A DNA stretch of 35,011 nucleotides. Origin: Methylocystis sp. (GTDB lineage: Bacteria; Pseudomonadota; Alphaproteobacteria; Rhizobiales; Beijerinckiaceae). Under the pieces are notes generated by a model. It was given only the letters and a program-made list of their open reading frames with translations. It was not told the origin of the DNA and searched no databases. Shown in pieces: positions 8,591 through 32,994 of this stretch (the stretch's first letter is position 1; each line of letters begins with the position of its first letter). Location of the stretch: positions 1-35,011 of the forward strand of contig JALHNR010000006.1 in NCBI GenBank assembly GCA_022843525.1, given 5' to 3'. The position numbers were made by a program, and so were the translations under genes.

Positions 8591-8662
8591 ACCGCAGGCC
8601 GGGTCGCGAGCAGCGTGGGCCCGCCGCGACCCCAACTCCCACTGACATCGTGGAAACCCAAA

Positions 8663-9837: not shown

Positions 9838-10073
9838 ACTCCCACTCGATGATTTTAGATCATCGTAACGCGCTGATTTTTCAGCGCAAATTTTTTCTGC
9901 TGACGGTCAAAGCCCGACTGTCGAGCCGTCAAAATTTTTCACTCTTGATTTCAAAGGTAAAATCGCGCGATTTGGATTTTGCGCGGCTTCGACGACTATC
10001 GACAACGATCGGCCAATTGTTTGCGTTGTCGATCGCCGAGCGCATTCTCGCGCCAGGATGAAAAAAGACCGTC
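9838..10073. repeat. Right copy of guaA-type att/terminal direct repeat
   Basis: The core ACTCCCACTCGAT (9838-9850) is preceded by TC, so 9836-9850 is the exact reverse complement of ATC GAG TGG GAG TGA, the expected guaA end including its stop. The following 220 bp are collinear with the copy at 106-341, including the hairpin, the CTCTTGATTTCAAA block, an AACGATCGG block and the closing AAAAAAGACCGTC. As in the left copy, no guaA coding sequence follows, so this is the left end of a second island. The 205 bp up to the next gene end (10279) hold nothing I recognise. Confidence 0.7.
9870..9887. repeat. Palindromic hairpin inside right att repeat
   Basis: Inverted repeat GCGCTGA/TCAGCGC with a TTTT loop, followed by AAATTTTTT. 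It is the counterpart of the hairpin at 138-155: the stem is conserved and only the loop-proximal pair differs. Confidence 0.5.
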
Positions 10074-10278: not shown

Positions 10279-13200
10279 TCAGTTGAAAATTGAGCCTAGG
10301 ACTTTCCAATGCTGCTGCACGACCGGCACGCCGCTGACTGCCGTCGCGCCGGCCACGGGAAATTGCACGAATTCGCCATCACCGCTCTGGCCGACATTCT
10401 CGAGATAGAAAACCGACGCTGCCTCCGGCATCGCTTTTCCAAGCCGTTTCAGATAGGCGAAGTGGTCCGCGGATACGGGATCGGCCTTCGTGACGACGGC
10501 GAGAATGCGCCCGTGCAGTAGGGGGAGGTCGGGCGGCCGTCCCAACAGCACATAGCCTTTGTCCAACGCGACCGGAAAGGCGCTGTCGCCGGCCACGCGC
10601 GCAGCGGCGACCACCTGCGCGAGCACGGGCGACGCGCCCAGAAAGACCGCCTCATCCTGCGACTTTGCCATCATCGTTTCATCGAACAGCACCCCGACGA
10701 TCTTGTGAAGCGTCGCGCTGCTGCGTTGCACGAAATGCGTCGGCGGCGCTCTCGGATTGGTCGAGGGCATCGTCTCCAGTGCGATCCGTGACGGCTCCGA
10801 GTTGTCGATCCCAATCCGCCGGGCGTAGGTCTTGCCCGGCGTCTGCACGACGGCGAAATCACCGTTCTTGACCTCCGCCGTAGCCGAGACGATCAGAGTC
10901 TGGCCGGGGAAGGCCACGAGACCGAGGGTAGGCGCGCGCAGCGTGAACAACGACACATCGCCGAGCGTCGCCAGCTCGAAGGTTTCCGTCGCATCGTCAA
11001 CGCTGGTCAACGCCCCGCCGACTTCCCGCGCAGCCAGCCGGCCGACAACGGCGATGGGCTTGCTGGGCAGCGTGACGACTTTCAGGTTGGAGCCACCCTT
11101 TTGCGCTTCGGCGACGGCTTGCTCTGGCGGCAGACGCCCCATAAAGCGGGCATAAGCCAGCCAGCACCCGTCGATGGCCGAAAAAACGTCCTCGTAGCCT
11201 TGCCGCACCACGTCAGCTTCGGCCGGCGAGATCTGATCCGCCTGACCATGATGCGCCTTGTTGATGACCTCGCGAAACGGTGCTCCCGCGCGCAAGACCA
11301 GGAGGTCAAGAAGGCGCTGAAACGGCTCTTCATTAAATGGTCGCTCGCCGCGTTTGCGCGCATTCGCGATCCGGCCGAGCAGGTCGTTTAAGGTCGGATC
11401 AATGAGGATCGACGGATCGGAAGCAAGCAGGTCCCACAGCTTGGTTTCGATCCGTATACGGACCGGATGAACGAAGGCCCGCGCCAGTGCGACATCGTTC
11501 ACATCGGTTTTCTGCCAATGTTCGCAGCGGGTCCGCGCCTCGTCCGCCACCGGCGCGAGGCTCGCAGTGCATTTCGAGGTGGAGATGGCGGAGAATTCCC
11601 AGGTCTCGAAGCGGTAGCTTGCGCCCCCGGCCTTGTGGGCAGTGACGAAACCCTCGATGGCCGGGATGAATCCGAAATCATTGCTGACGATCAACGGATT
11701 CATCTGCGCCGCCAGAAGATGCGGCACCGTTGCAGCCAGGTTCGCCACGTTGCTGGGGTCGAACAGATCCTGCGGATCGTCCATCAGGAGGGTCGTGAGC
11801 CCGCCGGCGCGATCCCAGACTTGCTGCCAGAGCGCCACGACGAAGGCGGCGAGATAGGCGCGCAGGGCCGAGGCATTCATGACGTGATGCGCTTCGACCA
11901 AATGCTTGCCTTGCGACGCCAGCAGGCCGAGCCCGTCGGTCTTTGCCGGATCGAGGCCAGCATATGCCGGCGCCTGCAGAAACTGTGCCCGGTACATGTG
12001 TTGCGCCCACGCGCTCGCCTGGGTGTCCAGCGCGGTGATCAGACCGGCCACCTGATCGTGCACCAGCGTTGGAAAGCGAACGAAAGGTTCGACCGCCTTG
12101 GCGGCCCGCGCCAGCTTCTCGATCCGAACCTTTAGCTTCGCCCATTTCTCGCAGGTCTCTTTGATCTGGGCGAGCTGCCGACGCAGACCGGCGAAGATCG
12201 TTGCGGCATCGCGATAGGCCTTAAGCACCGTCAACTGGCCATCGATGGAGCGAAGATTGGCGGCGAGATCGGTCTCGGGCTTGTCCGCCCGCAGGACGCC
12301 CATCATCGCCGCCTTGGCGAACTCCGCGTGTTCAGAGCGGTAGCGCGCGAGCTGGACGGCGCGGCGAACATTCTTAATGGCCGTGCGCAAGCCTTCGTTG
12401 TCGGGAATCTCTGACGGAATGTCGACACCGGGAAGCGGGGCACGCGGCGGCGCATCCCTCCACGCGGACCGGCACAACGTCGCAATGGCCGGCGACATCT
12501 TCTTGAGCATCGCCGGAAACTCCGGCGTCGCGAAGACTTCCTTCGACAGCGCCGCCTCGTAAAGAGCGGCGAGGTCGTCCGGGACAGCCTGCTCGATGAA
12601 CGGCTGGAGCGTCGCCGGCAGCCGCCCGTGCAACGACTGTCTTGTGTCGCGCTCCCATTCGGCCGCCGTCTTTAGCATCGCAGCGTCAGCTGTCCGGGCC
12701 TGGTTCAGCGCCTCTGCGACGGAGCGGTCCAGCAACGCATCTTTTGGAATCGCGCCAGGCTGGTTGAGATCGCGCTCGCAGACGGGGCAGTCGGTGAGCG
12801 GCTTGCCCGGATGGGCGGCCTCATGCCACTTGGCGACGAGACCGTATAGCCGCAGCCGATCGGCGCGCCCCGCATCAGCCAAGTGCGCGACCAAGGTTTT
12901 CGCCTCAGCCTCGATCTTCGCCAGCACGTCCTCGGCGGCGGTTATATGTTCGGCTGTCACTTCGCCGAGCTTCGACGAGAGCTGCATCGACGGCAATCCC
13001 TTGAGCGCCGCTCCGCTGAAGCAATTGCCCGCAGCCGTTAGGGCGGCGCCAAAACGATTGACATCGGCTTCCGTCGCCAGCGGCGGGAGCGCGCCAAGGA
13101 TCAGCAAGGCATCGGCAGCGGCCTTGGTTTCGACGGCTTTCAGGCGGGTCTCGGCCTCATCGAGCCCGGCCTTCCAGGCGTCGGGCTTCGCATCAGACGG

Positions 13201-14253
13201 CACCACCACGCAAGTGAGGTCGGGAAGGCTCTCACCGTCCTTCAGCAGATCGGCGAGCGTCTGCAATTGCTTCGCCGCCATTGTTTCGCAGTCAGCTTTG
13301 TCGGCTGTCGCCTGCTTGGGATATTTGTCGGTCAGGCGGTCGTGCAGACGTTCGCTGCGTTTGCCGAAATGCGCCAACGGCCGTAGGCCCGTCAACGTCG
13401 ACACGGCCTGCGACAAGGTGGTTTTATCGTCGAAGCGCGTGGCGGCAGCGATGCCGGGCATCAATGTTCCGACCTGAAGCGCCAACTCCGATAGGCCGAG
13501 CTTGTCGAGGCCGGTTGGTGTCGTCTTGAAGGCGCGCTTGCCGTCGCGTTCGAGGCGACGTTCGACATCGACTTCGCGCCCGTCGATGAGCGAGCGGAAT
13601 CTGAGCCGCACCCAGGTATCAACCTTCGGCGCGCCGTCGACCGCGACAAGCTCGGCTTCGTTGGGGATAGGGACAATGACGGGCAAGGCGAAGCTCTTGT
13701 CCGTTGTATCGCCGTCTCCGTCGCCTGCACCGACCTGCACCTGAATCGGTTCGTGCAAGAGCGAGGGAAGACCCTGCGAGCGATGACCGTAGCCAGTCAG
13801 ACACCAGCAGATCGCACTCACCAGTGACGTCTTGCCCGCTCCGTTGAAGCCGCGGAACAGCGAGACATCGCCCGCAAGCTCGAGCTCGAACAGATGCGGA
13901 TCGGCGCCGGCGGCGACGCAGTGACGATGCAAGCCGCGGAAGCGATGCGCGACGACTTTGACGAGACGCCATTTCTGCACAGTGGCGGGCGGCCGCGCCA
14001 GCGCAGCGACGGTTTTGGGCGGCTTGTCCAACGCATCTAGCACGCGGTCGATTTCACCGTCCTGGATGGTCGGATCCTTGTCTGGATTCCAATAGGTCCG
14101 GCGGTCCTGATTGTAGAACGCCAGAATCGCTCGACTATCGGCCAAAGACAGCGCGAATTCTTCGCCGCCCGTGACGGCGAGAACGTCGCCGGCGATCAGA
14201 TGGAGAACGACCTCATCGAGGGTGAGATCGGCAATCTTATGCGCCATCCCCAT
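10279..14253 (-). CDS. SMC/Rad50-like ATPase fused to tandem S24 (LexA-like) domains
   Basis: A 1324-aa multidomain protein. Residues 1-95 are an unrecognised helical segment. The ATPase begins at about 97, with Walker A GFNGAGKTS (135-143). A long, partly helical middle region carries CPVC at 489-492, resembling a Rad50 zinc hook. The second ATPase half has LTTLLMDDPQ (Walker B, Asp825-Asp826); a canonical LSGGQ is not visible. Residues about 1100-1190 follow the LexA/UmuD S24 pattern (PGQTLIVS, VKNGDFAVVQTPGKTYARR, HKIVGVLF) but lack the Ser and have Arg for the Lys. Residues about 1215-1324 repeat the pattern with VAGDSAFPVALDKGYVLLG (Ser1224), HFAYLKRL (Lys1269) and KVLGSIF, so a Ser-Lys dyad may be intact. 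ATG 14253 or 14247 could start it. It shares strand with sbcD-sbcC but sits after a 409-bp gap. The ATPase reading is secure; the S24 assignment is by pattern only. Confidence 0.85.
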   Translation of the reverse strand: MGMAHKIADLTLDEVVLHLIAGDVLAVTGGEEFALSLADSRAILAFYNQDRRTYWNPDKDPTIQDGEIDRVLDALDKPPKTVAALARPPATVQKWRLVKVVAHRFRGLHRHCVAAGADPHLFELELAGDVSLFRGFNGAGKTSLVSAICWCLTGYGHRSQGLPSLLHEPIQVQVGAGDGDGDTTDKSFALPVIVPIPNEAELVAVDGAPKVDTWVRLRFRSLIDGREVDVERRLERDGKRAFKTTPTGLDKLGLSELALQVGTLMPGIAAATRFDDKTTLSQAVSTLTGLRPLAHFGKRSERLHDRLTDKYPKQATADKADCETMAAKQLQTLADLLKDGESLPDLTCVVVPSDAKPDAWKAGLDEAETRLKAVETKAAADALLILGALPPLATEADVNRFGAALTAAGNCFSGAALKGLPSMQLSSKLGEVTAEHITAAEDVLAKIEAEAKTLVAHLADAGRADRLRLYGLVAKWHEAAHPGKPLTDCPVCERDLNQPGAIPKDALLDRSVAEALNQARTADAAMLKTAAEWERDTRQSLHGRLPATLQPFIEQAVPDDLAALYEAALSKEVFATPEFPAMLKKMSPAIATLCRSAWRDAPPRAPLPGVDIPSEIPDNEGLRTAIKNVRRAVQLARYRSEHAEFAKAAMMGVLRADKPETDLAANLRSIDGQLTVLKAYRDAATIFAGLRRQLAQIKETCEKWAKLKVRIEKLARAAKAVEPFVRFPTLVHDQVAGLITALDTQASAWAQHMYRAQFLQAPAYAGLDPAKTDGLGLLASQGKHLVEAHHVMNASALRAYLAAFVVALWQQVWDRAGGLTTLLMDDPQDLFDPSNVANLAATVPHLLAAQMNPLIVSNDFGFIPAIEGFVTAHKAGGASYRFETWEFSAISTSKCTASLAPVADEARTRCEHWQKTDVNDVALARAFVHPVRIRIETKLWDLLASDPSILIDPTLNDLLGRIANARKRGERPFNEEPFQRLLDLLVLRAGAPFREVINKAHHGQADQISPAEADVVRQGYEDVFSAIDGCWLAYARFMGRLPPEQAVAEAQKGGSNLKVVTLPSKPIAVVGRLAAREVGGALTSVDDATETFELATLGDVSLFTLRAPTLGLVAFPGQTLIVSATAEVKNGDFAVVQTPGKTYARRIGIDNSEPSRIALETMPSTNPRAPPTHFVQRSSATLHKIVGVLFDETMMAKSQDEAVFLGASPVLAQVVAAARVAGDSAFPVALDKGYVLLGRPPDLPLLHGRILAVVTKADPVSADHFAYLKRLGKAMPEAASVFYLENVGQSGDGEFVQFPVAGATAVSGVPVVQQHWKVLGSIFN

Positions 14254-14662
14254 GGCCCCTGTTTTCTCGACATTTCTCTCAGTTTGTCCGCGTTTGGCTT
14301 AACTTAAGTACCGCTGTCGTAGCTCGACCATGATAACTCGCGCTTTCTCAAATGGCGAGGAAAGCCCCCCTGCGGCTGAGCCATCAGGTCTCAGCCGCCC
14401 CCTCCTGCGGAGGGGCCCATGCCAAGCGAGCCTTATGGGAAAGACCGTCAGCGCTTTGCGCTCTATCGCGCAAATGACCTTTCACACATCGCCATGGCCC
14501 ACCAACGCGTCCGGGGTGAGCCTGACATTCGATCCATCGTCGAGACCCTGAGAAATCTTTCACGAACATGCTCTTGCACTTGGCAGCGCATACGGCGTTG
14601 CTGAAGACTTTGATGCCGTCATGTGGATCCGCCATAGACACCACGCTTGGGCCTAAACCATT
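14254..14662. other. 409-bp gap between ATPase and 186-aa genes
   Basis: The left part must hold the ribosome site and perhaps a promoter for the ATPase gene. At 14345-14415 it contains a structured repeat also found before ardC. A possible 61-codon plus-strand frame (14419-14604) starts 3 bp after that repeat, but its product matches nothing I know and I do not call it a gene. The rest shows nothing. Confidence 0.5.
14345..14415 (+). repeat. Structured repeat, copy 1
   Basis: Shares TCTCAAA, the GGAAAGCC word, CCCCTGCGGC-GAGCC and GGTCTC-GCCG with 33026-33093. It folds as CGGCTGAG (14373-14380) with CTCAGCCG (14390-14397), then CCCCTCC (14399-14405) with GGAGGGG (14409-14415). Compared with copy 2, one base pair of the first stem is changed on both sides, so pairing is kept. 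Here it does not precede a recognisable gene. Confidence 0.55.
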
Positions 14663-15223
14663 CTAAGATCCGGATCGAATTTGCTTGACCGACCGCATGA
14701 CGCTCTCGGCCGTCGTTAAGCTGAGCCCCATGTCGAGGCACAGTTTGAAGAACTCCTCTGGAGCATCAGCCTGGTCCAGGCGGTATTGGCGGGTGAGATC
14801 CCGGGCGAACTTCCCGATTGGAACGATGTCACTTGAGGAAACCCACTGCGGATTACCGACTTTCTCCTCAAATGCCATGATGACTTCGTCAGGAAGCTCG
14901 GCGCCGAAGAGAAAATAGCGAAGGTGACGGATAAAATTCGGATGCGTATAAATATCGGCACCTTTGCGACCGTTCCTTTCGAATAGGCCTTTGCGCGATG
15001 CTTTGATACTACCCTGATGGTAACGTGGGTCATTCCAGTAGTTCAGCCTTTCTTGGGGAACCGCAGACCTGTCGCTCAGAGATTGGAGCAAGGCGAGGAT
15101 CGGCTGTGCATTTGCTTTATAAGCTGCATGGCCTTCATCATGATTACGATGAGTTTCGCTCAGATCGATCTTCGCAAGTGTTGCCGCCTCGTCCTCAGTC
15201 AGCTTGATGTGATATTTTTCCAT
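14663..15223 (-). CDS. Conserved-looking hypothetical protein between sbcC and ATPase genes
   Basis: A 186-aa soluble protein I do not recognise. It has a charged N-terminal helix (KYHIKLTEDEAATLAKIDLSE), a central motif with NYWNDPRYHQGSIKASRKGLFERNG and YTHPNFIRHLRYFLFGAELPDEVIMAFEEKV, and a C-terminal helical part. The motif-like middle suggests a conserved family. The ATG at 15223 has GGAAAGG about 5 nt upstream. The frame opens further, to a GTG at 15277 abutting the sbcC stop, so it is translated directly after sbcC on one mRNA. Its place between two SMC-type ATPase genes suggests a partner or accessory of the DNA-processing complex; no function can be assigned. Confidence 0.75.
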   Translation of the reverse strand: MEKYHIKLTEDEAATLAKIDLSETHRNHDEGHAAYKANAQPILALLQSLSDRSAVPQERLNYWNDPRYHQGSIKASRKGLFERNGRKGADIYTHPNFIRHLRYFLFGAELPDEVIMAFEEKVGNPQWVSSSDIVPIGKFARDLTRQYRLDQADAPEEFFKLCLDMGLSLTTAESVMRSVKQIRSGS

Positions 15224-15277
15224 CAATCCTTTCCTTCTCGATCTCAAACGTTCCGAAGCGGCGGGATCTCCTGACAC

Positions 15278-18200
15278 CTATTGTACGGCACTCATGACAG
15301 GCCCAGTCGTACCCATCCCATCAGAAACTCGAATCTCCGATCGTCCAGCGCCGCGCTTTTCTACGCGAACCTGCACGGCGATCCGCTCGATCATGGCGGC
15401 CACATGCGTGATGACGCCAACCTTCTGACCTCTGCCCTGTAAGGTTTCTAGCGCATCTACTGCCAAGTCGAGCGTCTCAGCATCGAGCGATCCGAAGCCT
15501 TCGTCGATGAACAGGGTATCGACAAAGGATGCCCGGCCTTCGAGACCTGACAGCGCCAGCGCGAGCGCCAACGAAACCAGGAAACGTTCACCGCCTGAAA
15601 GGCTCCGGGTCCCGCGGACCTCGTCGCCCATGTCGTGATCGATGATATGCAGCGTGAGATCGGACGCTGATCCCCGCGCGAGCCTATAGCGGGGGCTCAA
15701 CGCATTGAGGTGATCATTCGCCAGTTGGACCATGTGATCGAGCGTGATGCCCTGTACAAAGCGGCGGAAGCGATCGCCGCTGGCGGAGCCGATAGCATCG
15801 TCAACCGCCTGCCAAATTGCGAGTTCCGCCCTTGCTGTGTCTATTTCAGCAGATAGGTTCGCGGCCGCACGGCGCGCGTCATCGTCGCGCGCGAGCGCTG
15901 CGGAAAAAACACCAGTTCGTTGGTGCAAGTCGCCGATTTCGGTTGCCAGCACTGCAACGACAGCGGTCAACGCCTCCGCGTCGGTCGTCTCGTCGAATCC
16001 TTCGAGCGCCCTACCTAAGTCATTCTGACGCGTCAGCACGGCAGCGTCCGCATCGTTCACAGCCCGCTCGATCTCTTGAATTCGCGTTCGCAGCGCTCTG
16101 CACACAGCTGGGTCGATGGCAATCAGTGCGGAAACCTGATCCGGCGACCGAGCAACGTCCTGACAGGACGTATTGAATGCCACTTCGGCTGAAGCGCGAC
16201 GGCTCTTCGCTGCTTCCAAGCCAGAGGCGGCCTCCTCACAACGGGCGCTGGCCGACTGAAACGCAGCGGCGGTTGCAGATTTCACCTCGCGCGCCTTAGT
16301 GAGCCCTTCACGGGCCGTCCGACGAGCTTCATTAATCCGTGTCCGGTGACTCGCAGTCGCCTCGCCGCCAAGGAGTTCGGCTCGGCCACTCGCCTTTTCC
16401 TCCACGACCAATCGACGTTGATCGAGACGGGTCGCGCTCTCCGTCATCTGCGTTCGCGCATGCTCTAGAGAGGCGGCAGCCGCCGCACGCTCAGGCGCCA
16501 GCCGCTGCAGCGTCATTTCCAGCTCGCCAACCTGCTTTCGCAGGGCATCGTACTCTTGTGCGACCGCTGAGAGCCTGACGGCAACGTCGGCGGGATCGGC
16601 ATCGAGTGCTTCGATGGTTAGATCGGCCGCAGCGAGATACGGCGCGATTTCACGGTCGATGGAACCGAGTCTCTCAGCAAGAGCCGCCTCGCGAACCATT
16701 TGTTCTTTTGCCTTCAATTGCGCAGCGTGCAGTTCAGAACGTCGTTGGTCAACGTCTCGGACTATCGACTCGATTACCCGAGCGAGCGCGTCATGCTCCC
16801 GCTGCATACCATCGATCTCTGTCCGAAGACGCTGGGCGTCTGCGAGTGGACCAGTGATAGTGATCCGTTCCGTCTTCGCGGCCAAGGCCAGCGCCGCCAA
16901 TTCGGGCGCGCCTTGGCTGCCGGGCGCGCGGGGCACGCTCCCCTCCACTCTCGCCTTCGAGCAGAGATCGCTCACTATCGGCCCCTGTTCGATATAAGCG
17001 CTCTCGGCAGCCGAAACTTGGCCGCGCGCGATATCGATCACGCGGTTTGCTTCTGCCCGGCGCACCTCTGCGGCGGCAAGTGCGCGTGTGGCAGCGCTGA
17101 GACGCTGACTTATCGCAGCCAGCGCCGTATCCAACTCTTCGCGACGGCGACGAACCGTAGCGACCATCTCGTTCAGCGCACTTGGGTGCACGAGATGAGG
17201 ATGGTCTGTGCTACCGCATACCGGGCAGGCTGAGTTCGGGGTCAACAGGCTGCGCAGATGGACGGCTTCAGCCGAGACAGTTTCATCGGCGAGCTCCGCG
17301 AGAGGTACGATTTCCGCGCGCGCGGTCCGATCGCGGAGCTGGTCCGATTCGGCGCCAGCGATTTGGCTGTTCGCTGTGCTCACCTCCTGCGCCGCAATGG
17401 CGAGCTCCGATTCCCCGCGCGCTAGATCCGCCGACGCCCGAATATGCTGTTCGCAGGTGGTGCTCACCTCACGCAGAGCCTCAAGCGCCCGTTGGAGATC
17501 AGTGTCACGTTCATGGAGCGCGGGCTCGTCGATTACGGCAAGACCGTTTCGCCGTTCACCCATCTCGCGACCGAGGCTATCTTTTCGCTCACGGTCCGCC
17601 ACGAGCTTTTCCGACAGCTCTGCTATTTCACCTTCCAAACGCGCCGTTATTTCCGCGGATTCAGCCGCCCCGAACGCCGTCGTGCCGCGGCTCTGTTTGA
17701 GATTGACCCGCTTCTCCAGCAGAACCGTCGCGTCACCGAGGCGATCGGCAAGGAGAACGCGACCCGATTGATCTCTCAATTGAGCCTTGGTTGTGCCGAG
17801 CGACGCTGTGGCCTGGTCAAGAGCATGATCAAGCGCGGCCAGCGCGTCCACGTTAGCCCGTAGCGTCACTTCCGCCTGCTGGGATTTCTCCGTCGCATCA
17901 ATGAACTCGATCCGGGCCGTCGCCAGCTCCGCGTCGAGCTTTTCGGCCTCGCTCCAGAGAGGTCCAAAGCGCTTGAAGAGGTCTTCTGCGGCCTCGTCGG
18001 CCGTTGTCGCATCCGTCAGCTGAGTTGCCGCCGCTTCGTCGAGGGTCCGTGCTTCTTCACGTGCAACAAGCAAATCACCGAGGCGTGATTCGGCCTCCGC
18101 CGCAGTCCGCTGCGCGTTGTCCATATCGACTGATAGTGGGCGAATCGGTTCGACCAGCTCGAATTCAGCAAGCGAGCGGTACTCATCGGCGGCCGCCTCA

Positions 18201-19063: not shown

Positions 19064-19066
19064 GGG

Positions 19067-20299
19067 TCAAGCCTCCGCCCGCACGCGGTGGAAAACATCC
19101 AAATGCGCAGCATTCGGCGCCGCGCCAAACTCGCGTTCGAACGCAAGCTTGAACAAGTCCTCTGGATCTCGTTCCGCCAACCGGATTAAAGGATCGGTGA
19201 GGACCTCCTCATTCAGCGCGCCGGGGATCGCGGCGACACGGGCATCGACGATGCGTACAGGAAAGTTCTCGGCAATGCGGTCGATCTCCTCCCTGAATCC
19301 GGGCGGCAGCCCGTCGCGGGTAAGCCTGATCTGGACGAATGGCCGCGCGCTGATCGGCAAATCCGGCTGGAGACCCAATGCCGTCAGATAATCGCCAAGT
19401 TCCGTCAAGCGCATATCGCCAGCCTCTGGGAGGCGCAGGAAAGGAACTGGCCGATCGACCGGGATATGTTCAGACGTGACCTGCGCACCGTCGAGGCTCA
19501 CAAGCGTGACCCCATGAGCGTAAGGCTGCTCCGTCGCCGACAAGGGAATCAATGATCCCGAATAGCGAACGGTATCGCGGCCGACGGCCTGGGCCTTGTG
19601 CAGGTGGCCGAGCGCCACGTAGCTCGCTTCCGTTGGGAATACGTCATGCGGCACGGCATGCTGACCGCCGACCAGGATTCGCCGCTCCGCGCCCTCCGAC
19701 TCGATGCCGCCTGCGACATGGAGGTGCCCTGTAAGGACAAACGGCAAACTGTCCATCTGCCCCCGTAACGTATCGAGCAATTCCGCGTAGAGACTGCGCA
19801 CCCCGGCGATGACGGGCGAGCCGGACTCGCCATCCAGCCGCGTCAAATTTGGAAGGCACGCGGCCGTCGGGTAGGAGACCGCCAAAACGTGTGCGGCCAC
19901 CGCACCGCTGGCGTCAGCGATCGGCACGAGGTGGCGTGCCGCCTCGATCCGCCCGTCATGCCGCCGCACATTTCCCACGACGCGGATCTTGAACGCCTCC
20001 AATAGAGGCCGTGGCGCTTCCAACCGACCAGCGGCATCATGATTGCCGGCGACGATCACGGTTGTCATTCGTGGCCGCGCGCGGCTCAGCCGCACAAGCG
20101 TATTGTAGAAAAGCTGTTGCGCTTCTCCGGACGGGTTCTGACTGTCGAACACGTCGCCGGCGATTATGAGCGCATCGACGTTCCGCTCAACGACAATCTC
20201 TTCGAGGCGCTCAAAAACTTTAAGGTGCTCATGCTCGCGCGAAAACCCGCGCAGCGTTTGACCGACGTGCCAATCAGCCGTGTGGAGAATACGAATCAT
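19067..20299 (-). CDS. sbcD: SbcD-like exonuclease subunit (Mre11 family)
   Basis: A 410-aa calcineurin-like phosphoesterase of the Mre11/SbcD type. Metal-binding motifs appear in order: HTADWHVG (Asp9, His11), IIAGDVFDS, VAGNHDAAG, LTGHLHVAGG and ALGHLHKAQAV. A C-terminal capping region follows. Met at 20299 matches the family's usual MxILHTADWHxG start and has GGAGG about 10 nt upstream; the frame extends eight codons further. It is preceded by the WYL regulator gene (106 bp) and followed by sbcC after 3 bp. Confidence 0.95.
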   Translation of the reverse strand: MIRILHTADWHVGQTLRGFSREHEHLKVFERLEEIVVERNVDALIIAGDVFDSQNPSGEAQQLFYNTLVRLSRARPRMTTVIVAGNHDAAGRLEAPRPLLEAFKIRVVGNVRRHDGRIEAARHLVPIADASGAVAAHVLAVSYPTAACLPNLTRLDGESGSPVIAGVRSLYAELLDTLRGQMDSLPFVLTGHLHVAGGIESEGAERRILVGGQHAVPHDVFPTEASYVALGHLHKAQAVGRDTVRYSGSLIPLSATEQPYAHGVTLVSLDGAQVTSEHIPVDRPVPFLRLPEAGDMRLTELGDYLTALGLQPDLPISARPFVQIRLTRDGLPPGFREEIDRIAENFPVRIVDARVAAIPGALNEEVLTDPLIRLAERDPEDLFKLAFEREFGAAPNAAHLDVFHRVRAEA

Positions 20300-20405
20300 T
20301 GTCTTTAGTCCTCCGGTGTTCAAGCGAAGGTGTTCGATCCAGCTTCGGAACTCCGGGAGTTAACAACCATACGGCTCAACTCTTCGGTTCAACAAGCGCG
20401 GCAAT

Positions 20406-21284
20406 TCAGTCCTCAGTTCCATGCGACATTGTTTCGGCTGCCAGAACCTGTGGATTCAAGAGAACGATCTGCTGGTCTTGCGGTCTGCGCACCTTCTCAT
20501 CGCCATCGAGACCAAGGCGTTTGAGAGTGTAGTAAAGAAAAGCGCGGCGAACCCGCACCTTTGCCTTTCCACCGCTCATTCCGTAGTCGAGCGCGATGAC
20601 CTTCTTCTGTGTCTCGGAAAGATCTGGATGAGGACCGACTTCAAGAACTACATGTTCCTGCCAGCCTCGATCCGCATTCGCCTCGATCTCACCGGTTCGA
20701 ATCCCGCGAGTTTCGAGAACTCGTGACAGCAGAAAATCCTTGAAGTCTCGATCAATCTCGCAATAGGCGCGCATATGCCAACGGAAACCGTCGAAGCCGA
20801 TGGCGTGAGGTGTTATCCAGCGCCATTTCGGCTCGGGACGTGAGAGCGACTGGTATTTGATTTCGATTGCTTCGGCGCGGCGGATCACTTTCACGATAGC
20901 GCGCAGCGTCTCGGCATTCACTCCCCGGACCGGGGTCGCCGCGGCATCGTAAGGTGGGAGGCTCCCGATCCAGGAATCAGAGCTTTCAAGAATCCCATCG
21001 GCCACCGAACGCAACTGCGAAAGGTATGCGTGTGGGTCCGGCTTCAGGAAACAAGGCCTAAAGTTTTCGCTGGCGACATAGCGTTTGGCGCTCTTGTCAT
21101 AGATCGCGTTCCGCGGCGCCCTCTCCTGATAGAGGGTAAGGTCCTTCGATGCCTGCGGCACCGACACATCGAACATTTCGATGATGTCGGCGCGATTGAC
21201 GCCGCCTTCCCAGAAAAGCCGGAATTCGATGAATTCGAGCCGCCGTTCCACTCCCCATGTCAATCTCGCACCGGCTTCCCCCAT
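20406..21284 (-). CDS. BrxR/CapW-like WYL-domain transcriptional regulator
   Basis: A 292-aa regulator with three parts. The N-terminal winged helix (RRLEFIEFRLFWEGGVNRADIIEMFDVSVPQASKDLTLY, then NAIYDKSAKRYVA) is the hallmark of the BrxR/CapW group. A WYL domain spans about residues 125-200 (IEIKYQSLSRPEPKWRWITPHAIGFDGFRWHMRAYC). A C-terminal extension follows at about 210-285. GGAGG lies 7 nt before the ATG. Known BrxR/CapW proteins are dimeric repressors of phage-defence operons (BREX, CBASS) and bind inverted repeats. This gene lies at a divergent promoter serving sbcD-sbcC on one side and the AddBA-like genes on the other, so it probably controls both arms. Confidence 0.9.
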   Translation of the reverse strand: MGEAGARLTWGVERRLEFIEFRLFWEGGVNRADIIEMFDVSVPQASKDLTLYQERAPRNAIYDKSAKRYVASENFRPCFLKPDPHAYLSQLRSVADGILESSDSWIGSLPPYDAAATPVRGVNAETLRAIVKVIRRAEAIEIKYQSLSRPEPKWRWITPHAIGFDGFRWHMRAYCEIDRDFKDFLLSRVLETRGIRTGEIEANADRGWQEHVVLEVGPHPDLSETQKKVIALDYGMSGGKAKVRVRRAFLYYTLKRLGLDGDEKVRRPQDQQIVLLNPQVLAAETMSHGTED

Positions 21285-21306
21285 CCTTCAGCCTCCGATG
21301 CAGTGG

Positions 21307-21321
21307 ATATAGGAACTATAT
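21307..21321. promoter_or_regulatory. Inverted repeat 1 in divergent promoter
   Basis: ATATAG (21307-21312), GAA, CTATAT (21316-21321): a perfect 6-bp dyad between the WYL gene and the AddB-like gene. Its right edge touches the proposed rightward -35. Confidence 0.45.
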
Positions 21322-21351
21322 GGACATATCATCACGACCCGTCTATTTAAT
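21321..21351 (+). promoter_or_regulatory. Proposed rightward promoter (AddB/AddA-like)
   Basis: TGGACA (21321-21326) and TTTAAT (21346-21351) each match five of six sigma70 consensus bases, with a longish 19-nt spacer. The -10 overlaps that of the leftward promoter and lies inside inverted repeat 2. Confidence 0.35.
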
Positions 21352-21360
21352 ATTCGTGAT
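21331..21360. promoter_or_regulatory. Inverted repeat 2, candidate WYL-regulator operator
   Basis: ATCACGA (21331-21337) and TCGTGAT (21354-21360) form a perfect 7-bp dyad with a 16-nt spacer. The half-sites are 23 bp apart centre to centre, about two helical turns, as expected for a dimer reading one face of DNA. The spacer covers the proposed -10 boxes of both divergent promoters, an ideal position for repression. Confidence 0.5.
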
Positions 21361-21376
21361 TGCCCTCTCGGGTCAA
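21347..21376 (-). promoter_or_regulatory. Proposed leftward promoter (WYL-sbcD-sbcC)
   Basis: On the minus strand TTGACC (21376-21371, five of six bases of the sigma70 -35) and TATTAA (21352-21347) are separated by 18 nt, upstream of the WYL gene. The -10 is enclosed by inverted repeat 2. Confidence 0.45.
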
Positions 21377-21443
21377 GGCCGAAATTCTCCTGTCATCAGG
21401 GGGACGTTTTGTCCGACCTTCAGAAGGTGGCTGGGAGGGACGC

Positions 21444-24101
21444 ATGGGACAACCGCTTCGGCATACGATTGTAGCGCACGGCCGCCTTGCCATGCGAGAG
21501 CTTCGGCTCGCCGCGGCGCGGGAGCGCCGTCACGGCCTGCAGATCATGACTTTCGAACAGCTCGCCGCACGCCTAGCCGGCGGCCTGTCCCGGCCGCTCG
21601 ATGATGAAACCCTTCGAGCGGCGATCCAGATGTGCTTGCCGGAAACGCCGCTCGGCGAACTCGATACCCTGAGAACCCTCCCGGGAATGGTCGGTGCTGC
21701 CGCCGACACCCTGCACAAGGCGTGGCGTGCAGGCATCAATCTCCAGGCGCGCGCCGCCGAGCATCCGCGCATAGCGTCAATCGCCGCGCTCGAAAGGGCG
21801 GTTCTCGACGCTCTGCCGCCAGCGATGCTGCGTCCTGTAGATATTGTCGATACCGCATTGCAACGTCTCGACCATGTGGAAGCGCTGTTTGGCCCGATTG
21901 AGATCGTCGGGATCACCGAACTATCTCCGTGCTGGCGGTCCCTGCTACATGCGCTCGCCGCGCGCGTACAGGTGCGATGGAACGCCGGCCCGAGATCTGT
22001 CCCCCACTGGCTCGATGGTGAACGCATCGCGATTATTCGGACGGAACCGCAAGCGCCAGCGATCACTACGGTCAGTGCGGCGACCGCCTATCATGAAGCG
22101 ATCGAGGCTCTTCGTTGGGCACGGGCGCTGGTGGCATCGGGAACCGAGCCCGGCGATATCGCCATCGCCGCCGTCGCGCCAGCCGACTACGACGACCACC
22201 TTCTGGCTCTACGGTCCGATGCCAATCTCGACCTCCATTTCGTCCATGGCGTGAAGATTACTGCCTGCCGAGAAGGACAAGCGGCCGCGGCGCTGGCGGA
22301 TATCCTCCTGCGCGGGCTGTCGCAGACGCGGGTGCGCCGGCTGTCTGCGCTCCTGAGCGCTTATCCTGGTCCCTTCCAGGCACTGCCGGAAGGGTGGACG
22401 CGCATCCTGCCGGCCGATGCACCGCTGGCATCACCTGAATCCTGGGACCGGCTCATCGAGCGTACAACAGCCACGGAATGGCCGGACGCCGTCAATCACG
22501 GCACGGCCTTGCGCGAAATCGTTGGTCTGTTGGCGCAGGGTGCGGCCGCAGCCGAAGCAATTGGTGAGGCGCTGTTGCACGGCCGGACCTTGGCGATCTG
22601 GCGCAAGGCCTTGCTCGCCGGCCCGGCCGCGTCCCTCGATCTCACTTTGGAGTCGTTGCGGCAGGATGATGGGCTCGACGCCTGCGTCTCGCTCGCCTGG
22701 ATGCCGGCGAGCGCGCTCGCAGCTTCACCGCGCCGGTTCGTTCGCCTGCTCGGTCTCAATTCCTCACGCTGGCCGCGCGGCATCTCCGACGACCGGCTGC
22801 TGTCCGACCACATCATCTCCACCTCCGAACTCGATCCTCTTCCGGTCGGCGCGGCGGACCGGCGCGATTTCGCGACGATCCTCGCCACGACCGAAGAACA
22901 GGTCGTTCTATCGCGGGCGCGACGTGATAGCGATGGACGTCTCCTCGGCCGCAGCACGCTGCTGCAGGGTCAACCCGAGGAAACCTATCTGCGGCGCAAC
23001 GGCGTGCCGGATCATGCCCTCAGCGAAACCGATCGCCTGATGGCTCGGCCGCAGGAATTCCGCGCCCTTCCGCAAGCGCTGACGGCCTCAGCGTGCTGGC
23101 ACGACTGGCTGCGCGAAGAGATCACCGCGCATGACGGCTTGGTTCGGGCTGATCACCCGGTGATGCGGGCTATCCTCAGCCGCACCCAGTCGGCCAGTTC
23201 GCTGCGTCAGCTCCTGCGCAATCCGCTGGGGTTTGTTTGGCAATATGGTCTGCGCTGGCGCGCGCCCGAAAGCGGCGAGGAACCGCTTGTGCTGGACGCG
23301 CTGGCGATGGGAGATCTCGTCCATATGACCCTCGACCGGGCGCTGCGCACCATTGAAGCGGGCGGCGCGCTCGCCACCGCCACGTCTGCGGAGATCGCAG
23401 CGGCTGTCGCCGCCGCCACCGTTGACGTCGCTCGCGTCTGGGAAACCGAGCGGGCTGTGCCGCCACGCGTCATCTGGCGACGGACGCTTGACGAAGCCCG
23501 CGAAATGAGTTGCCGCGCACTCGCGTTCAGTGATGACGCGCTGCCCGCCGCCCGCGCCTATGGCGAAGTGGCGTTTGGCGGTGCCGAGCCTAAGACAGAC
23601 GTCGCACCGCCCTGGGACGCGGCGGCGAGCGTCGAAATCCCGGGCGCAGGTTTCCGAATTGCCGGCTACATCGATCGCCTGGACATCGCGGGCGACGGTC
23701 AGCGCGCTTTGGTGCGAGACTACAAGACAGGCCGCACGCCGAAGACCGGCATCGTGCTCGATGGCGGTAAGGAGCTGCAACGCTGTCTCTACGCCTTCGC
23801 GGTCAAGGCGCTGCTCGGCCGAGACGTCGAGATCCGCGCCTCGCTGCTCTACCTTCGCGACGAAATGGATCTGAGGCTCGCCGATCCCGAGGCTACCCTC
23901 GTCGAAGTCGCTGCCCATCTTCGCGAAGCCCACGCCAACCTTCTCTCCGGCGGAGGCGTAATCGGGATCGACACCGGCGGGACTTATGACGACTTCGCGT
24001 TCGCCCTACCCGCCAATGCGGGCGCCGCCTATTGCAGGCGCAAGAGCGCCGCGGCGACAGCGCGCCTCGGAGCCGCAGCGCAAGTCTGGGAGGCTCAATA
24101 A
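21444..24101 (+). CDS. AddB-like PD-(D/E)XK nuclease/inactive helicase
   Basis: An 885-aa AddB-type protein. The N-terminal two thirds resemble the inactivated helicase half of AddB. The C-terminal RecB-family nuclease is clear: GDLVHMTLDRAL (His627), AGYIDRLDI (Asp744), VRDYKTG (Asp759, Lys761), and KELQRCLYAFAV. Typical AddB has four Cys holding an Fe-S cluster around this nuclease; here the C-terminus has a single Cys, so the cluster seems absent. ATG at 21444 is chosen because GGGAGGG lies 4-5 nt before it; a TTG start at 21360 would run through the proposed operator. The stop overlaps the next gene's ATG (TAATG). With AddA it should form a dual-nuclease DNA-end resection motor. Confidence 0.88.
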   Translation: MGQPLRHTIVAHGRLAMRELRLAAARERRHGLQIMTFEQLAARLAGGLSRPLDDETLRAAIQMCLPETPLGELDTLRTLPGMVGAAADTLHKAWRAGINLQARAAEHPRIASIAALERAVLDALPPAMLRPVDIVDTALQRLDHVEALFGPIEIVGITELSPCWRSLLHALAARVQVRWNAGPRSVPHWLDGERIAIIRTEPQAPAITTVSAATAYHEAIEALRWARALVASGTEPGDIAIAAVAPADYDDHLLALRSDANLDLHFVHGVKITACREGQAAAALADILLRGLSQTRVRRLSALLSAYPGPFQALPEGWTRILPADAPLASPESWDRLIERTTATEWPDAVNHGTALREIVGLLAQGAAAAEAIGEALLHGRTLAIWRKALLAGPAASLDLTLESLRQDDGLDACVSLAWMPASALAASPRRFVRLLGLNSSRWPRGISDDRLLSDHIISTSELDPLPVGAADRRDFATILATTEEQVVLSRARRDSDGRLLGRSTLLQGQPEETYLRRNGVPDHALSETDRLMARPQEFRALPQALTASACWHDWLREEITAHDGLVRADHPVMRAILSRTQSASSLRQLLRNPLGFVWQYGLRWRAPESGEEPLVLDALAMGDLVHMTLDRALRTIEAGGALATATSAEIAAAVAAATVDVARVWETERAVPPRVIWRRTLDEAREMSCRALAFSDDALPAARAYGEVAFGGAEPKTDVAPPWDAAASVEIPGAGFRIAGYIDRLDIAGDGQRALVRDYKTGRTPKTGIVLDGGKELQRCLYAFAVKALLGRDVEIRASLLYLRDEMDLRLADPEATLVEVAAHLREAHANLLSGGGVIGIDTGGTYDDFAFALPANAGAAYCRRKSAAATARLGAAAQVWEAQ

Positions 24102-27100
24102 TGTCCGCGCCGACGAAACCGCTCGCCGACGATGCATCCCGCCGCGACGCCATCGCGGTTCACGACCGCGCCTTCCTGGTGGAGGCCGGCGCTGGCTCCG
24201 GAAAGACCGCGGTCATGGCCGGCCGCATCGCCATGATGCTGGCCGAAGGCATCGCCCCAAGAACCGTCGCCGCCGTGACCTTCACTGAACTCGCGGCTAG
24301 CGAGCTCCTCATCCGCGTGCGCGAGTTTGTCGGTGAACTCACCGCCGGCCGCATCCCCGCCGAATTGTGCGTGGCGCTGCCCGGCGGCCTCTCCGATCAG
24401 CATCGCCAGAACCTCGCTGCCGCGAGCGACACAATCGACGAAATCACCTGTTCGACGATCCACGGCTTCTGCCAGCGTCTGATCAAGCCCTATCCGGTGG
24501 AAGCCGACATCGATCCCGGGGCGACGGTGATGGACCGGAATCAGTCCGATCTCGCCTTTGTCGAAATCATCGAGGCATGGCTCCGTGAGGAGCTAGCGGG
24601 AGAAGGCGGCGGCCTGCTTGTCGAGATGGTGCTGCGCGAGCCAGGCGAAGCCGTCAACCTCATCCATACGATCCTGCGTCATCTCCGCAGCCGACGCGTC
24701 CTGGTGGTCGACGCACCGGAGGCTTTGGCGCCGTTGGTGAAAGCCATTTCTGACGCAGCGGACGAGTTTTCTGCATTCTTGCGCGGATGTGGCGCTGAAG
24801 AGCCGGAAACCGTCGCGATTGCAGCGCGCTTCGCGGAAATGGCTGAGAGCATCGCCTTTGCTCTCAATACCGAGGCGCCAGCCGATCTCGTCCGCCTGTT
24901 GATCACGCGGCCGCATCCTGATCTTTGCACGGCGTCCGGGAGCTTCCGCGCCTATAAGAAGAAGGGCAAATGGGGCGAGGCGGCCAAACGCGTAGGCCTC
25001 TCGAAGGCCGACGGTGACCGGCTGAATGCCGCCGCCGAGACACACAACGCGGCCTGCTGCGAGGCGTGGACTTCCCTACTGCAGGCCGTTGCGGCGCGCG
25101 TTCTCGCCGAGCTTGTAGGTCTGGTGCAGCCGGTCATGGACCGCTTCCGGGACTATAAGCGATCGGCGGCGCTTCTCGATTTCGACGACTTGATCTTCGC
25201 CGCCCGCGATCTGCTGCGCAACCACGAGGCGGTGCGCCGCGCACTTGCCGCCCGCTTCGCGCATGTTCTCGTCGACGAATTTCAAGACACCGATCCGCTC
25301 CAAACCGAGATCTTCTGGCGGCTGTGCGGCGAACCGCCGGCCGGGGCGGACGAAGGCGACTGGACGGCGTACCATATTCGGCCGGGCGCACTGTTCCTGG
25401 TCGGCGATCCGAAACAGGCGATCTATCGCTTTCGCGGCGCTGACGTTGCCGCCTACATCAAGGCCCGCGAAGCCTTCTTAGCCCAGACTCCGGACAGCGT
25501 ACTGCCGATCTCTACCAATTTCCGCTCCTGTGCCCCGATCTTGCACTATGTAAACGAGCGCTTCGAGACCCTGCTCTCAGTGGAGAACGGTCAGCCGGGC
25601 TTCACTCCGCTGGACCCTTTTCATCCCGCGCGGGATGAGAGTTTGTGTGTCGCTGCGCTCGACGTGGCGGTTGCGGATGAAGATGGCAAAGCGTCGGCAG
25701 AGCAGCAGCGGGACGGCGAAGCCGAAGCTGTCGCCGACATGTGTGCACGTCTCATCGGCAGTGAGGCGATCCTTGATCGCAAGACCGGCGAGAGCCGCCC
25801 CTGCCGGCCTGGCGACATTGCGCTCCTGGCGCCGACAGGAAGTGATCTCTGGCGCTACGAGGAAGCGCTGGAGCGGCACGGCATTCCGGTCGCGACCCAA
25901 GCCGGGAAAGGCCTGTTTCGTCGGCAGGAGATTCAAGATCTCATCGCGATCACGCGCGTCCTGGCAGACCGACGGGACACGCTGGCGCTCGGCGCGCTAC
26001 TACGCGGGCCCCTGGTCGGCCTGACCGAGGAGGAGCTGCTCGACATTGTGTGGAATTTGCCGCGCTCGCCGGATGCGCCGGACGCTCTGCCTCGGTTCGA
26101 CCTTGGCGTCGACCCCGAGCATATCGGCCAGCCCATCGCCCGCGACGTGATTGAAAAGCTGCAGGCGTTGCGTCGGCGGGTCAACGCCACCACACCCCAT
26201 GACCTTCTGTCGCAAGCGGTCGATGTGCTGCGCGTGCGCCCGATCCTCCTCCAGCGCCATCGCGGTCAAGCCGAGCGCGCGCTCGCCAATGTCGATCTCT
26301 ATCTGTCCCTCAGCCGCCCACTTGCGGTGCGCGGGCTGCGCGCCTTCGCCGAGACCATGGCCGCAGCCTGGGCCGACGAAACACGCGCCGTCGAGGGCCG
26401 GCCGGACGCTCAGGAAGAGGCTGTGGCACTTTACACCATGCACGCCGCTAAGGGCCTGGAATGGCCGATCGTCGTACCCGTCAACACTATGACGCAAATT
26501 ATGGCGCCGGAGAACGCCGTCACTGATCGCGCGAGCGGGCATTTCTATTGTCCCATCTTCGGCGTGAAGCCGACCGGCTACGAGGCCGCGCGCGATGCCG
26601 AGAAAGCCGAGCTCGATCGCGAGCGTATCCGGCTCTGGTATGTGGCCGCGACCCGCGCGCGCGAGCTTCTGGTCCTGCCCCGGCTGGATGTAGCCGCCAA
26701 AAGCTCCGCCTGGATTTCGCTTCTTGACCTCTCTCTTCCCGGTCTACCGAGCCTGGATCTCAACCACCTTCCTGCCGATGCCACGTTCGGCGCCACTGCG
26801 GCCGAAAACGACCAAAGCCGCGAGATCTTCGCCGCGGAAGCCGCCGCGATCGCCGCGCGGCAGCGGCGTATCGTTTGGCTGGCGCCAAGCCGGGACGAAG
26901 CCACCACGGGGCCGGTGCTGGAAAAGGAGACGCCGGATATTCTGGTAGCGGATAGCGAGGGTAAACCCGTCGAGGAAAACCTTCCGATTAGCGTGCAAGG
27001 TGGCCGAGAGCGCGGTGCCCTGCTGCACAAGCTGATCGAAGAAGTTCTCACCGGCGAAACCGAGGAGGCGCAAGACGCGCTCCAAGCCCGCGCCACGAGT

Positions 27101-27505
27101 CTGATCCGCGGCTTGGGCCGTCCGATCGTCGAAAACCCGGCCGAAGGGCTCGCGCCTGCGGAACTCGCCGGGACCGTGATGCGCGCGCTCAACCTTCCGG
27201 AAATCGCATCCTTGCGTCCGGGTCTGATGCCAGAGCTTCCGGTCTATGCATCGGTCATGACGGACGGGCAGGAAGAGGCGACAGCAGGTGTTGCGGATGC
27301 TGTCGCCTTCGATCCGGGCGGCAAGCCGCAGGTGGTGGTCGATTGGAAGAGCGACGTGGCCCCCTCGGCCGCCGTCATCGAGCATTATCGCGCTCAGGTA
27401 CGAGCCTACCTTGATGTGACCGAGACGGAGCGCGGGCTGATCGTCCTGGCCACACCAGGGACTGTCATCCAGGTGATGCGGGCGCCAGCGCCCGCCGCAT
27501 CCTGA
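24101..27505 (+). CDS. AddA-like UvrD-family helicase-nuclease
   Basis: A 1134-aa SF1A helicase with all motifs: AGAGSGKT (Lys35), TFTELAASEL, LVDEFQDTD (Asp392-Glu393), GDPKQAIYRFRGAD, STNFRS, TMHAAKGLEWPIV, and WYVAATRARELL (from 846). The C-terminal RecB-type nuclease has GALLHKLIEEVL, ADAVAFD (Asp1066), VVVDWKSD (Asp1081, Lys1083) and HYRAQVRAYL, so it looks active. Length and domain order match AddA. The ATG shares its A with the stop of the AddB-like gene. I read the pair as an island-borne AddAB homologue under the WYL regulator; a chromosomal AddAB elsewhere is likely but cannot be seen. Confidence 0.93.
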   Translation: MSAPTKPLADDASRRDAIAVHDRAFLVEAGAGSGKTAVMAGRIAMMLAEGIAPRTVAAVTFTELAASELLIRVREFVGELTAGRIPAELCVALPGGLSDQHRQNLAAASDTIDEITCSTIHGFCQRLIKPYPVEADIDPGATVMDRNQSDLAFVEIIEAWLREELAGEGGGLLVEMVLREPGEAVNLIHTILRHLRSRRVLVVDAPEALAPLVKAISDAADEFSAFLRGCGAEEPETVAIAARFAEMAESIAFALNTEAPADLVRLLITRPHPDLCTASGSFRAYKKKGKWGEAAKRVGLSKADGDRLNAAAETHNAACCEAWTSLLQAVAARVLAELVGLVQPVMDRFRDYKRSAALLDFDDLIFAARDLLRNHEAVRRALAARFAHVLVDEFQDTDPLQTEIFWRLCGEPPAGADEGDWTAYHIRPGALFLVGDPKQAIYRFRGADVAAYIKAREAFLAQTPDSVLPISTNFRSCAPILHYVNERFETLLSVENGQPGFTPLDPFHPARDESLCVAALDVAVADEDGKASAEQQRDGEAEAVADMCARLIGSEAILDRKTGESRPCRPGDIALLAPTGSDLWRYEEALERHGIPVATQAGKGLFRRQEIQDLIAITRVLADRRDTLALGALLRGPLVGLTEEELLDIVWNLPRSPDAPDALPRFDLGVDPEHIGQPIARDVIEKLQALRRRVNATTPHDLLSQAVDVLRVRPILLQRHRGQAERALANVDLYLSLSRPLAVRGLRAFAETMAAAWADETRAVEGRPDAQEEAVALYTMHAAKGLEWPIVVPVNTMTQIMAPENAVTDRASGHFYCPIFGVKPTGYEAARDAEKAELDRERIRLWYVAATRARELLVLPRLDVAAKSSAWISLLDLSLPGLPSLDLNHLPADATFGATAAENDQSREIFAAEAAAIAARQRRIVWLAPSRDEATTGPVLEKETPDILVADSEGKPVEENLPISVQGGRERGALLHKLIEEVLTGETEEAQDALQARATSLIRGLGRPIVENPAEGLAPAELAGTVMRALNLPEIASLRPGLMPELPVYASVMTDGQEEATAGVADAVAFDPGGKPQVVVDWKSDVAPSAAVIEHYRAQVRAYLDVTETERGLIVLATPGTVIQVMRAPAPAAS

Positions 27506-27523
27506 GATTGGCAGGCGGCTTCC

Positions 27524-27613
27524 ATGTCCTCCCTAGCCTGGCTCGATTTCGACGAAGCCGAGCGCCAGCTCGCGCAGCGGATCATGAGCGCGCTCCACGC
27601 GGCGCAGCCGCCG
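27524..27613 (+). pseudogene. 5' remnant resembling a DUF6361 protein
   Basis: Starting 18 bp after the AddA-like stop, MSSLAWLDFDEAERQLAQRI resembles the N-terminus of DUF6361 proteins, which continue with a conserved DELGLG/RD...LFPGTST region. That continuation is missing: after about 25 codons the frame becomes unrelated and runs antisense into the helicase gene. I infer that a third gene of this operon was cut off when the neighbouring block arrived. The match is short and from memory of the family. Confidence 0.45.
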
Positions 27614-32975: not shown

Positions 32976-32994
32976 GTTTGGATCCGGTTCTGCC

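Follow-up and report, generated by a model that had tools for sequence, protein, structure and literature searches.

A probable composite defence island in Methylocystis joins a recurring regulator-AddAB unit, an SbcCD-type pair and a Rad50-like ATPase with S24-like repeats

The window analysed here is a stretch of 35,011 nucleotides from Methylocystis sp. (contig JALHNR010000006.1 of assembly GCA_022843525.1), and the genes in question lie between positions 10279 and 27505. At their centre, the gene for a predicted CapW/BrxR-family WYL regulator (20406-21284, minus strand) and the gene for an AddB-like protein (21444-24101, plus strand) diverge from a promoter region (21285-21443) that carries the element AACTATATGGACATATC at 21314-21330. 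The AddB-like gene is followed on the same strand by a gene for an AddA-like helicase-nuclease of the UvrD family (about 24032-27505), with a true start that probably lies near 24101. On the other side of the regulator, and all on the minus strand, are genes for an SbcD-like nuclease (19067-20299), an SbcC-like ATPase (15278-19063) and a protein of 186 amino acids (aa) that is predicted to be all-helical (14663-15223), then a gap of 409 bp and the gene for a Rad50-like ATPase of 1324 aa (10279-14253) with two S24-like repeats at its C-terminus. The 186 residues are counted from the gene's own ATG; the tool that listed the open reading frames started it at an upstream GTG, giving 204 aa. A sequence-only reading had described this gene order and a WYL regulator of the BrxR/CapW type at the divergent promoter, and both were confirmed. 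It had also joined the six or seven genes into one inducible defence system. We consider it likely that the locus is instead a composite defence island that is carried by a mobile element and built from modules that travel separately. These look like a repressor with AddB-AddA, cut after AddA (module A), SbcD-SbcC with the 186-aa gene (module B), the S24-ATPase (module C), Gabija (module D) and AbiE (module E).

Loci for comparison were gathered by three anchors and scanned with profiles built for this analysis, and genes within 10 kb were counted as neighbours. All counts include the window, and several loci had flanks shorter than 10 kb, so that absences are lower-bound statements. The ATPase was represented by 24 loci, made up of the window, 13 of 26 plasmid records and 10 genome loci. 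Left out were L131 (a 3.8-kb contig), H7, H8, H25, H26, G187, G250 and G937, as well as H2, H3 and H18-H23, which were taken as copies of H1/H17 from their near-equal values. The 16 AddB loci comprised the window, 7 of 64 plasmid records and 8 genome loci, with the fragment G561 left out and L032-L034 counted under the 186-aa gene only. Nine window-type loci were used for SbcC (H90, H91, H95 and H96 were left out). L007, on the same plasmid as L026, and L014, at the same place as L046, were also omitted. Near the ATPase gene, SbcD was found at 8, SbcC at 6, the WYL gene at 2, and AddB and the 186-aa gene at 1 locus each, and in both of these last cases the locus was the window itself. The neighbours of the 186-aa gene at its 32 loci were SbcC (5), AddB (5), the ATPase (1) and the WYL gene (1). 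AddA was present at all 16 AddB loci, together with the WYL gene at eight, the 186-aa gene at two and SbcD at one. At none of the ATPase, 186-aa, AddB and SbcC loci except the window was the full gene set present.

The junctions between the genes were compared as well. Homology to eight SbcD loci (L006, L013, L023-L026, L028 and L087) started at the SbcD start codon, and the homology to the WYL gene of L006 ended about 160 bp before that codon. A complete DUF6361 gene follows AddA in L006, L104 and L105; the window keeps 72 bp of it, the first 24 codons (27523-27594, plus strand), and then continues into Gabija, and this stub is the point at which the AddAB operon was cut off. The 409-bp gap between the 186-aa gene and the ATPase gene had no match among the loci compared. 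We read the seams at the SbcD start, after AddA and before the ATPase as probable traces of recombination between modules.

The proposal of a six- or seven-gene system, in which the WYL repressor would control end recognition by SbcCD, resection by AddAB and a protease output by the S24-ATPase, and the 186-aa protein would serve as adaptor, was rejected on these co-occurrence counts and junctions, and we regard it as highly improbable. The divergent regulator with its conserved promoter element, the lack of a terminator-like site between the WYL gene and SbcD on the minus strand in a consensus scan, and the ATPase genes near SbcD and, twice, near a WYL gene all speak in its favour. Against this stand the single occurrence of the full set, the pairing of the ATPase with the 186-aa gene and with AddB at 1 of 24 loci each, SbcC near the 186-aa gene at just 5 of 32 loci, and the seams, including the unmatched gap. 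Loci with a homologue of the ATPase or of the 186-aa protein regularly lacked SbcCD, AddAB or the WYL gene, an outcome that the sequence-only reading itself had named as speaking against its proposal. The locus is thus not a new single defence system. Support for parts of the sequence-only reading came from the CapW/BrxR regulator, the regulator-AddAB unit, the Ser-Lys pair of the ATPase and a loose link between the ATPase and SbcCD.

The WYL protein of module A matched five solved CapW/BrxR-type chains (1.2e-65 to 2.9e-32) over 84-95% of its length and contained a WYL domain (PF13280, 2.5e-10); judged by its sequence, it is a CapW/BrxR-family regulator. The AddA-like protein had a Walker A motif, DExQ and the nuclease motif DWK, and its 277 bits lay below the curated AddA cut-off of 860.75, hence the name "AddA-like". 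In the AddB-like protein the PD-(D/E)XK nuclease motif was present as DYK, there was no Walker A, and no AddB model was matched at E<=0.01. At 7 of the 16 AddB loci the WYL gene was divergent from AddB with the two starts no more than 300 bp apart, and the intergenic core of these seven loci could be aligned with many invariant columns. The element AACTATnTGGACATAyC was exact in five of the seven (the window, L006, L018, L019 and L103), and one or a few bases were changed in L106 and L104. Its exact 16-bp form was found at 6 of 173 loci, always upstream of AddB, and two of these occurrences are duplicates (L090 equals the window, and L091 is part of L103); the window held one copy, and none appeared in any of 100 shuffles. 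The genes behind the WYL gene differed from locus to locus, being BREX in L018 and L019, a NOV_C-domain helicase in L104 and L106, a sacsin-domain protein in L103 and SbcCD in the window, while L006 had no such operon. Behind AddA, the other loci had a helicase or a gene set led by DUF6361. The divergent arrangement is a real, recurring regulator-AddAB unit that appears to act as a plug-in with differing genes behind the regulator, and SbcCD in the window takes the place held by BREX in L018 and L019. The conserved divergent element makes co-regulation of AddAB and of the genes behind the WYL gene plausible, and read-through from the WYL gene into sbcD would be possible across the interval in which the consensus scan found no terminator-like site.

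Several neighbourhoods of the AddAB genes were of interest in their own right. In L018 and L019, the WYL gene of a BREX operon (with annotated brxC, pglX and pglZ, and additionally brxL in L019) faces addB, addA and helicase genes across the divergent promoter element, and these genes look like an accessory of BREX; AddA of L018 matched in two pieces. On a Sulfitobacter plasmid (L020), genes for TerB-N, an ATPase and a DEAD helicase, which we take to be a Shango-like set, run straight into addB-addA-helicase. AddB-AddA of L021 and L027 lie directly behind ThiF/JAB or multiubiquitin-ThiF-DUF6527 genes, which look like ubiquitin-like conjugation operons.

In module B, the phosphoesterase motifs of the SbcD-like protein (DxH, GDxxD, GNHD and GHxH) were all intact, and the protein passed the NCBIfam sbcd subfamily cut-off. 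The SbcC-like protein had Walker A, a CPVC zinc hook, LSGGE and Walker B, and it scored below the curated family cut-offs (398.7 of 750 and 254.9 of 478.5 bits), hence "SbcC-like". The arrangement SbcD-SbcC-186 aa was seen at five of the nine window-type SbcCD loci and is a second, smaller link that is real. Across the junction between SbcC and the 186-aa gene, homology was unbroken in L006, L026, L028 and L047 (76-82%) and broke off where SbcC ends, or close to that point, in L013, L023, L024 and L025, making the 186-aa gene an optional third gene of the module. The pair SbcD-SbcC is as mobile as the regulator-AddAB unit. It came directly after SIR2-HerA (DUF87) genes in L023 and L026, where these genes overlap sbcD-sbcC, which suggests an SbcCD-extended SIR2-HerA operon. 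Elsewhere it followed an AAA ATPase (L025) or the S24-ATPase (L013), had AbiE genes in its vicinity (L006) or stood alone (L024).

The idea that the 186-aa protein has a constant partner was rejected, as no such partner was found. The gene followed SbcC at five loci (window counted), ArdC at four (L030, L035, L046 and L042), and at three (L032-L034) it lay just downstream of a pair of Gabija-like GajA and UvrD-type genes. In these three loci, from Bradyrhizobium, Ensifer and a Rhizobiales genome, a distant AddB-AddA operon is divergent from the 186-aa gene, and in L033 the 186-aa gene is split. The protein was matched in 4 of 200 close genomes including its own, once barely (9e-4) and once in a form broken by a stop, and in viral contigs its gene was found at two loci. 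An AlphaFold2 (AF2) model was all helical with a predicted local distance difference test (pLDDT) score of 85. It had no Foldseek match at E<=0.001, and its best VIA match, for residues 109-186, was to a designed helical repeat with a Z of 6.8, which falls in the range that the tool treats as uninformative for helical proteins. No Pfam, PADLOC or NCBIfam match was found for the 186-aa protein at 0.01, and its best PHROG match was at 0.094.

The S24-ATPase of module C is the most unusual part of the locus. Walker A is at residue 135, CPVC at 489 and Walker B (LLMDDPQ) at 822, the best match among solved structures was a Rad50 chain (1.6e-6), and the head is, by these motifs and this match, Rad50-like. 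We compared 17 proteins including that of the window, down to about 25% identity; 16 were full or nearly full length and one (L128) was without its N-terminal third, and the split or stop-bearing L087, L089, L111, L112, L123, L124 and L130 were left out. The comparison revealed 47 invariant columns. Ser1224, Lys1269, the zinc-hook-like CxxC (Cys489/Cys492) and DDPQ of Walker B were invariant in all 17 proteins, and Walker A in all 16 that reach that far. The Ser-Lys pair was found only in the second C-terminal repeat, the first being without it. Pfam Peptidase_S24 was matched in four of five family members scanned (best 2.3e-4), and the window protein's own match (0.022, 14.9 of 23.3 bits) was below the curated cut-off. 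In hhalign comparisons with eight LexA-type sequences, picked from 30 S24 loci by a Ser-Lys motif filter, residues 1060-1180 (the first repeat) reached 92% and residues 1180-1324 (the second repeat) 72%. The values were 0.1-0.3% for five unrelated profiles and 0.0-0.2% for two further regions of the ATPase, and a positive control, the N-terminal region of the ATPase against SbcC, worked (96%). Ser1224 and Lys1269 aligned with the Ser and Lys residues of catalytic type in LexA-like S24 proteins. These results support LexA-like S24 domains with a Ser-Lys pair at the C-terminus, as predicted from sequence profiles, and the earlier description of the protein as an SMC-S24 fusion was supported.

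The ATPase is rare. At E<=1e-15 it was found in 4 of 385 genomes of the class, 9 of 337 of the order and 4 of 398 in a sample of the phylum, its own genome included each time; at E<=1e-3 its profile had matches in 96 of the 385 genomes, mostly short stretches of ABC motifs. The gene was often broken, with stops in G681 and G649 and split, interrupted or degraded copies in L087, L089, L111 and L112. In a search of viral contigs for the ATPase, 51 stretches fitted a pattern and none of them was a relative. The regions upstream of seven ATPase genes held no convincing common element beyond the gene start, except for those of the closely related L013 and L087.

Several results weigh against the account given so far. 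For the S24 domains, a second positive control in hhalign, the Walker B region against SbcC, failed at 1.7%, which shows that the profile method can miss true matches, and a single-sequence AF2 model of the peptidase region alone had a pLDDT of 36 and was unusable, so that the S24 fold rests on the sequence profiles. For the independence of the modules, an SbcD-type nuclease lies within 10 kb of the S24-ATPase at the 8 of 24 loci noted above, and on the Croceicoccus plasmid p2 (L088:9851-18990) the ATPase, SbcC, SbcD and a WYL gene are found together at 26-35% identity to the window. The ATPase was near SbcD at 7 of 23 loci as compared with 0 of 15 AddB loci (one-sided Fisher test, p=0.02, for loci that are not independent); the same test against the 186-aa gene, with 4 of 31 loci, gave p=0.11, again for loci that are not independent. 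The association of the ATPase with pairs of the SbcCD type is suggestive, and it hints at a looser functional tie rather than pure independence.

These observations are the basis for a smaller system, in which the S24-ATPase would read DNA ends that an SbcCD-type Mre11-Rad50 pair makes or trims, with AddAB, Gabija and AbiE as bystanders. SbcD lies 125 bp behind the ATPase gene in L013 and L087, SbcC is convergent with it at 67 bp in L088, and the two types of gene are also within 10 kb of each other in L010, L112, L111, L128 and the window. Moreover, the SbcCD copies involved differ, being window-like in L013 and L087 and having an SbcD of about 28% identity in L010 and about 33% in L088. However, 16 of the 24 ATPase loci were without SbcD in the available DNA (some flanks being short), gene order and strand vary, L013 and L087 show a single arrangement from one genus, the latter with only a partial SbcD, and degraded copies make up L111 and L128. 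We therefore consider such a system unlikely, and separate modules remain the reading that we prefer. The Croceicoccus plasmid is the best case for a real ATPase-SbcCD unit.

Beyond AddA, the window continues with two known kinds of defence genes, as the sequence-only reading had stated. The Gabija genes gajB (27632-29362, minus strand, PADLOC 1.6e-293) and gajA (29359-31227, minus strand, PADLOC 0) adjoin each other, and they are followed by genes for an AbiEii toxin-like nucleotidyltransferase (31291-32205) and an AbiEi antitoxin-like protein (32202-32996), both on the minus strand and matched by Pfam. To the right of AbiE are two genes of the carrier element on the plus strand, one for an ArdC anti-restriction protein (33192-34151) and one for a ParB-like protein that is cut by the contig end (34182-35009). 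They are 82% (ArdC) and 77% (ParB-like) identical to their counterparts in a Methylobacterium locus (L030), which indicates that the island touches a mobile-element backbone. In L030 the 186-aa gene comes directly after ArdC; in the window ArdC is next to the ParB-like gene, with the 186-aa gene at a distance of 18 kb. At the other end, positions 1-10000 hold ordinary genes of metabolism and regulation (SDR, periplasmic binding protein, isochorismatase, AraC, LysR, flavin mononucleotide oxidoreductase and pirin), and the guanine-cytosine content falls to 0.55 at 9-10 kb, which is likely the edge of the island.

Alternatively, the role of the SbcCD and AddAB copies might be to maintain the plasmid or element that carries them, by DNA repair or end protection in transfer, and not defence. 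Relatives occur on plasmids, many of them predicted to be conjugative (11 of 26 ATPase records and 40 of 64 AddB records), and ArdC and ParB-like genes flank the island. The genome also has a second, diverged SbcCD on another contig (SbcD at 48% identity) and a further AddA-like protein on another contig (about 27-29% identity), which marks the copies in the window as accessories. Yet copies recur in or beside BREX, TerB-N/ATPase/helicase, SIR2-HerA and AbiE genes, and here beside Gabija, and are presumably under a regulator of the CapW/BrxR family. A role in maintenance is for these reasons rather improbable, a little more so than the ATPase-SbcCD system.

For the composite island, the following sequence of events can be proposed. 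The CapW/BrxR-type repressor would sit on the conserved element between the WYL gene and AddB until infection or DNA damage relieves it and AddAB is raised, probably together with SbcCD via read-through behind the WYL gene. AddAB (RecBCD type) and SbcCD (Mre11-Rad50 type) would then act as end-processing nucleases that attack ends and hairpins of invader DNA. Independently of them, the Rad50-like head of the S24-ATPase may bind unusual DNA, and the engaged state may switch on the Ser-Lys peptidase, which would cleave the protein itself or a partner. We offer only tentatively the further idea that the ATPase is a one-protein immune switch of a new kind, a Rad50-type sensor of DNA structure with a built-in LexA-type peptidase that an ATP-driven change of state turns on and whose cleavage of itself or of a partner starts defence or cell arrest; a repressor could be that partner, as could a nuclease of the SbcCD type in some islands.

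The analysis sets apart genes that travel together from genes that are merely neighbours. The combination of a CapW/BrxR-type regulator with an AddAB-like pair before different genes suggests a portable, inducible end-processing accessory, and pairs of the SbcCD type are in the same way attached to various genes, SIR2-HerA and AbiE among them. If it is active, the fusion of ATPase and S24 domains would unite the sensing of DNA structure and LexA-type proteolysis in one chain.

A comparison with known systems showed where each part resembles and departs from its relatives. The window ATPase shares with Lamassu LmuB and ABC-3C proteins a Rad50-like head, a zinc-hook-like CPxC and an altered Walker B, DDP in place of the usual DEP. 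The review PMC10586767 describes LmuB as Rad50-like with a zinc hook and a Glu-to-Gln change in Walker B. It has about 650 aa and a separate LmuA effector, whereas the window ATPase is a single chain of 1324 aa with S24-like domains. The PADLOC models of LmuB cover about 20-40 residues around Walker A of the ATPase (best match, residues 124-154), and LmuA was not among the PADLOC families listed for nine window proteins (the best 25 for three of them). With LexA and other S24 proteins the ATPase shares the aligned Ser1224/Lys1269 of its second repeat, and it differs by its fusion to a Rad50-like head, by a first repeat without the pair and by having no helix-turn-helix family in the Pfam scans.

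The SbcCD pair of the window resembles canonical SbcCD in having all nuclease and ATPase motifs sought and an SbcD above its subfamily cut-off, and it differs by an SbcC under the family cut-offs and by being an accessory beside a second, diverged genomic SbcCD. As in AddAB, the helicase-nuclease and nuclease subunits are adjacent and both have PD-(D/E)XK motifs; unlike it, AddA is under its cut-off and AddB, with no Walker A, is unmatched by AddB models. The WYL protein resembles BrxR/CapW in its match to five solved chains over most of its length; its divergent partner is, in contrast, an AddB-AddA operon, and the genes behind it vary between loci. According to PMC9122601, BrxR is a repressor that co-occurs with many diverse defence systems, and AddA, RecB and SbcC are absent as words from its main text. 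The likeness to type I BREX lies in L018 and L019, where a WYL gene and promoter element of the kind seen in the window have brx/pgl genes on one side and addB-addA-helicase on the other; none of the BREX core genes brxC, pglX and pglZ was found among 21 window proteins scanned with Pfam. The nuclease accessories of type I BREX listed in the first part of section 35 of PMC12839542 do not include an AddAB pair, and the main text of that paper had no match for the words AddA, AddB, RecB or UvrD. Neither an S24-Rad50 fusion nor AddAB as a partner of BREX or of a WYL regulator was found described in the open-access literature searched, and judged by that literature both the regulator-AddAB unit and the S24-ATPase appear to be novel versions of familiar types.

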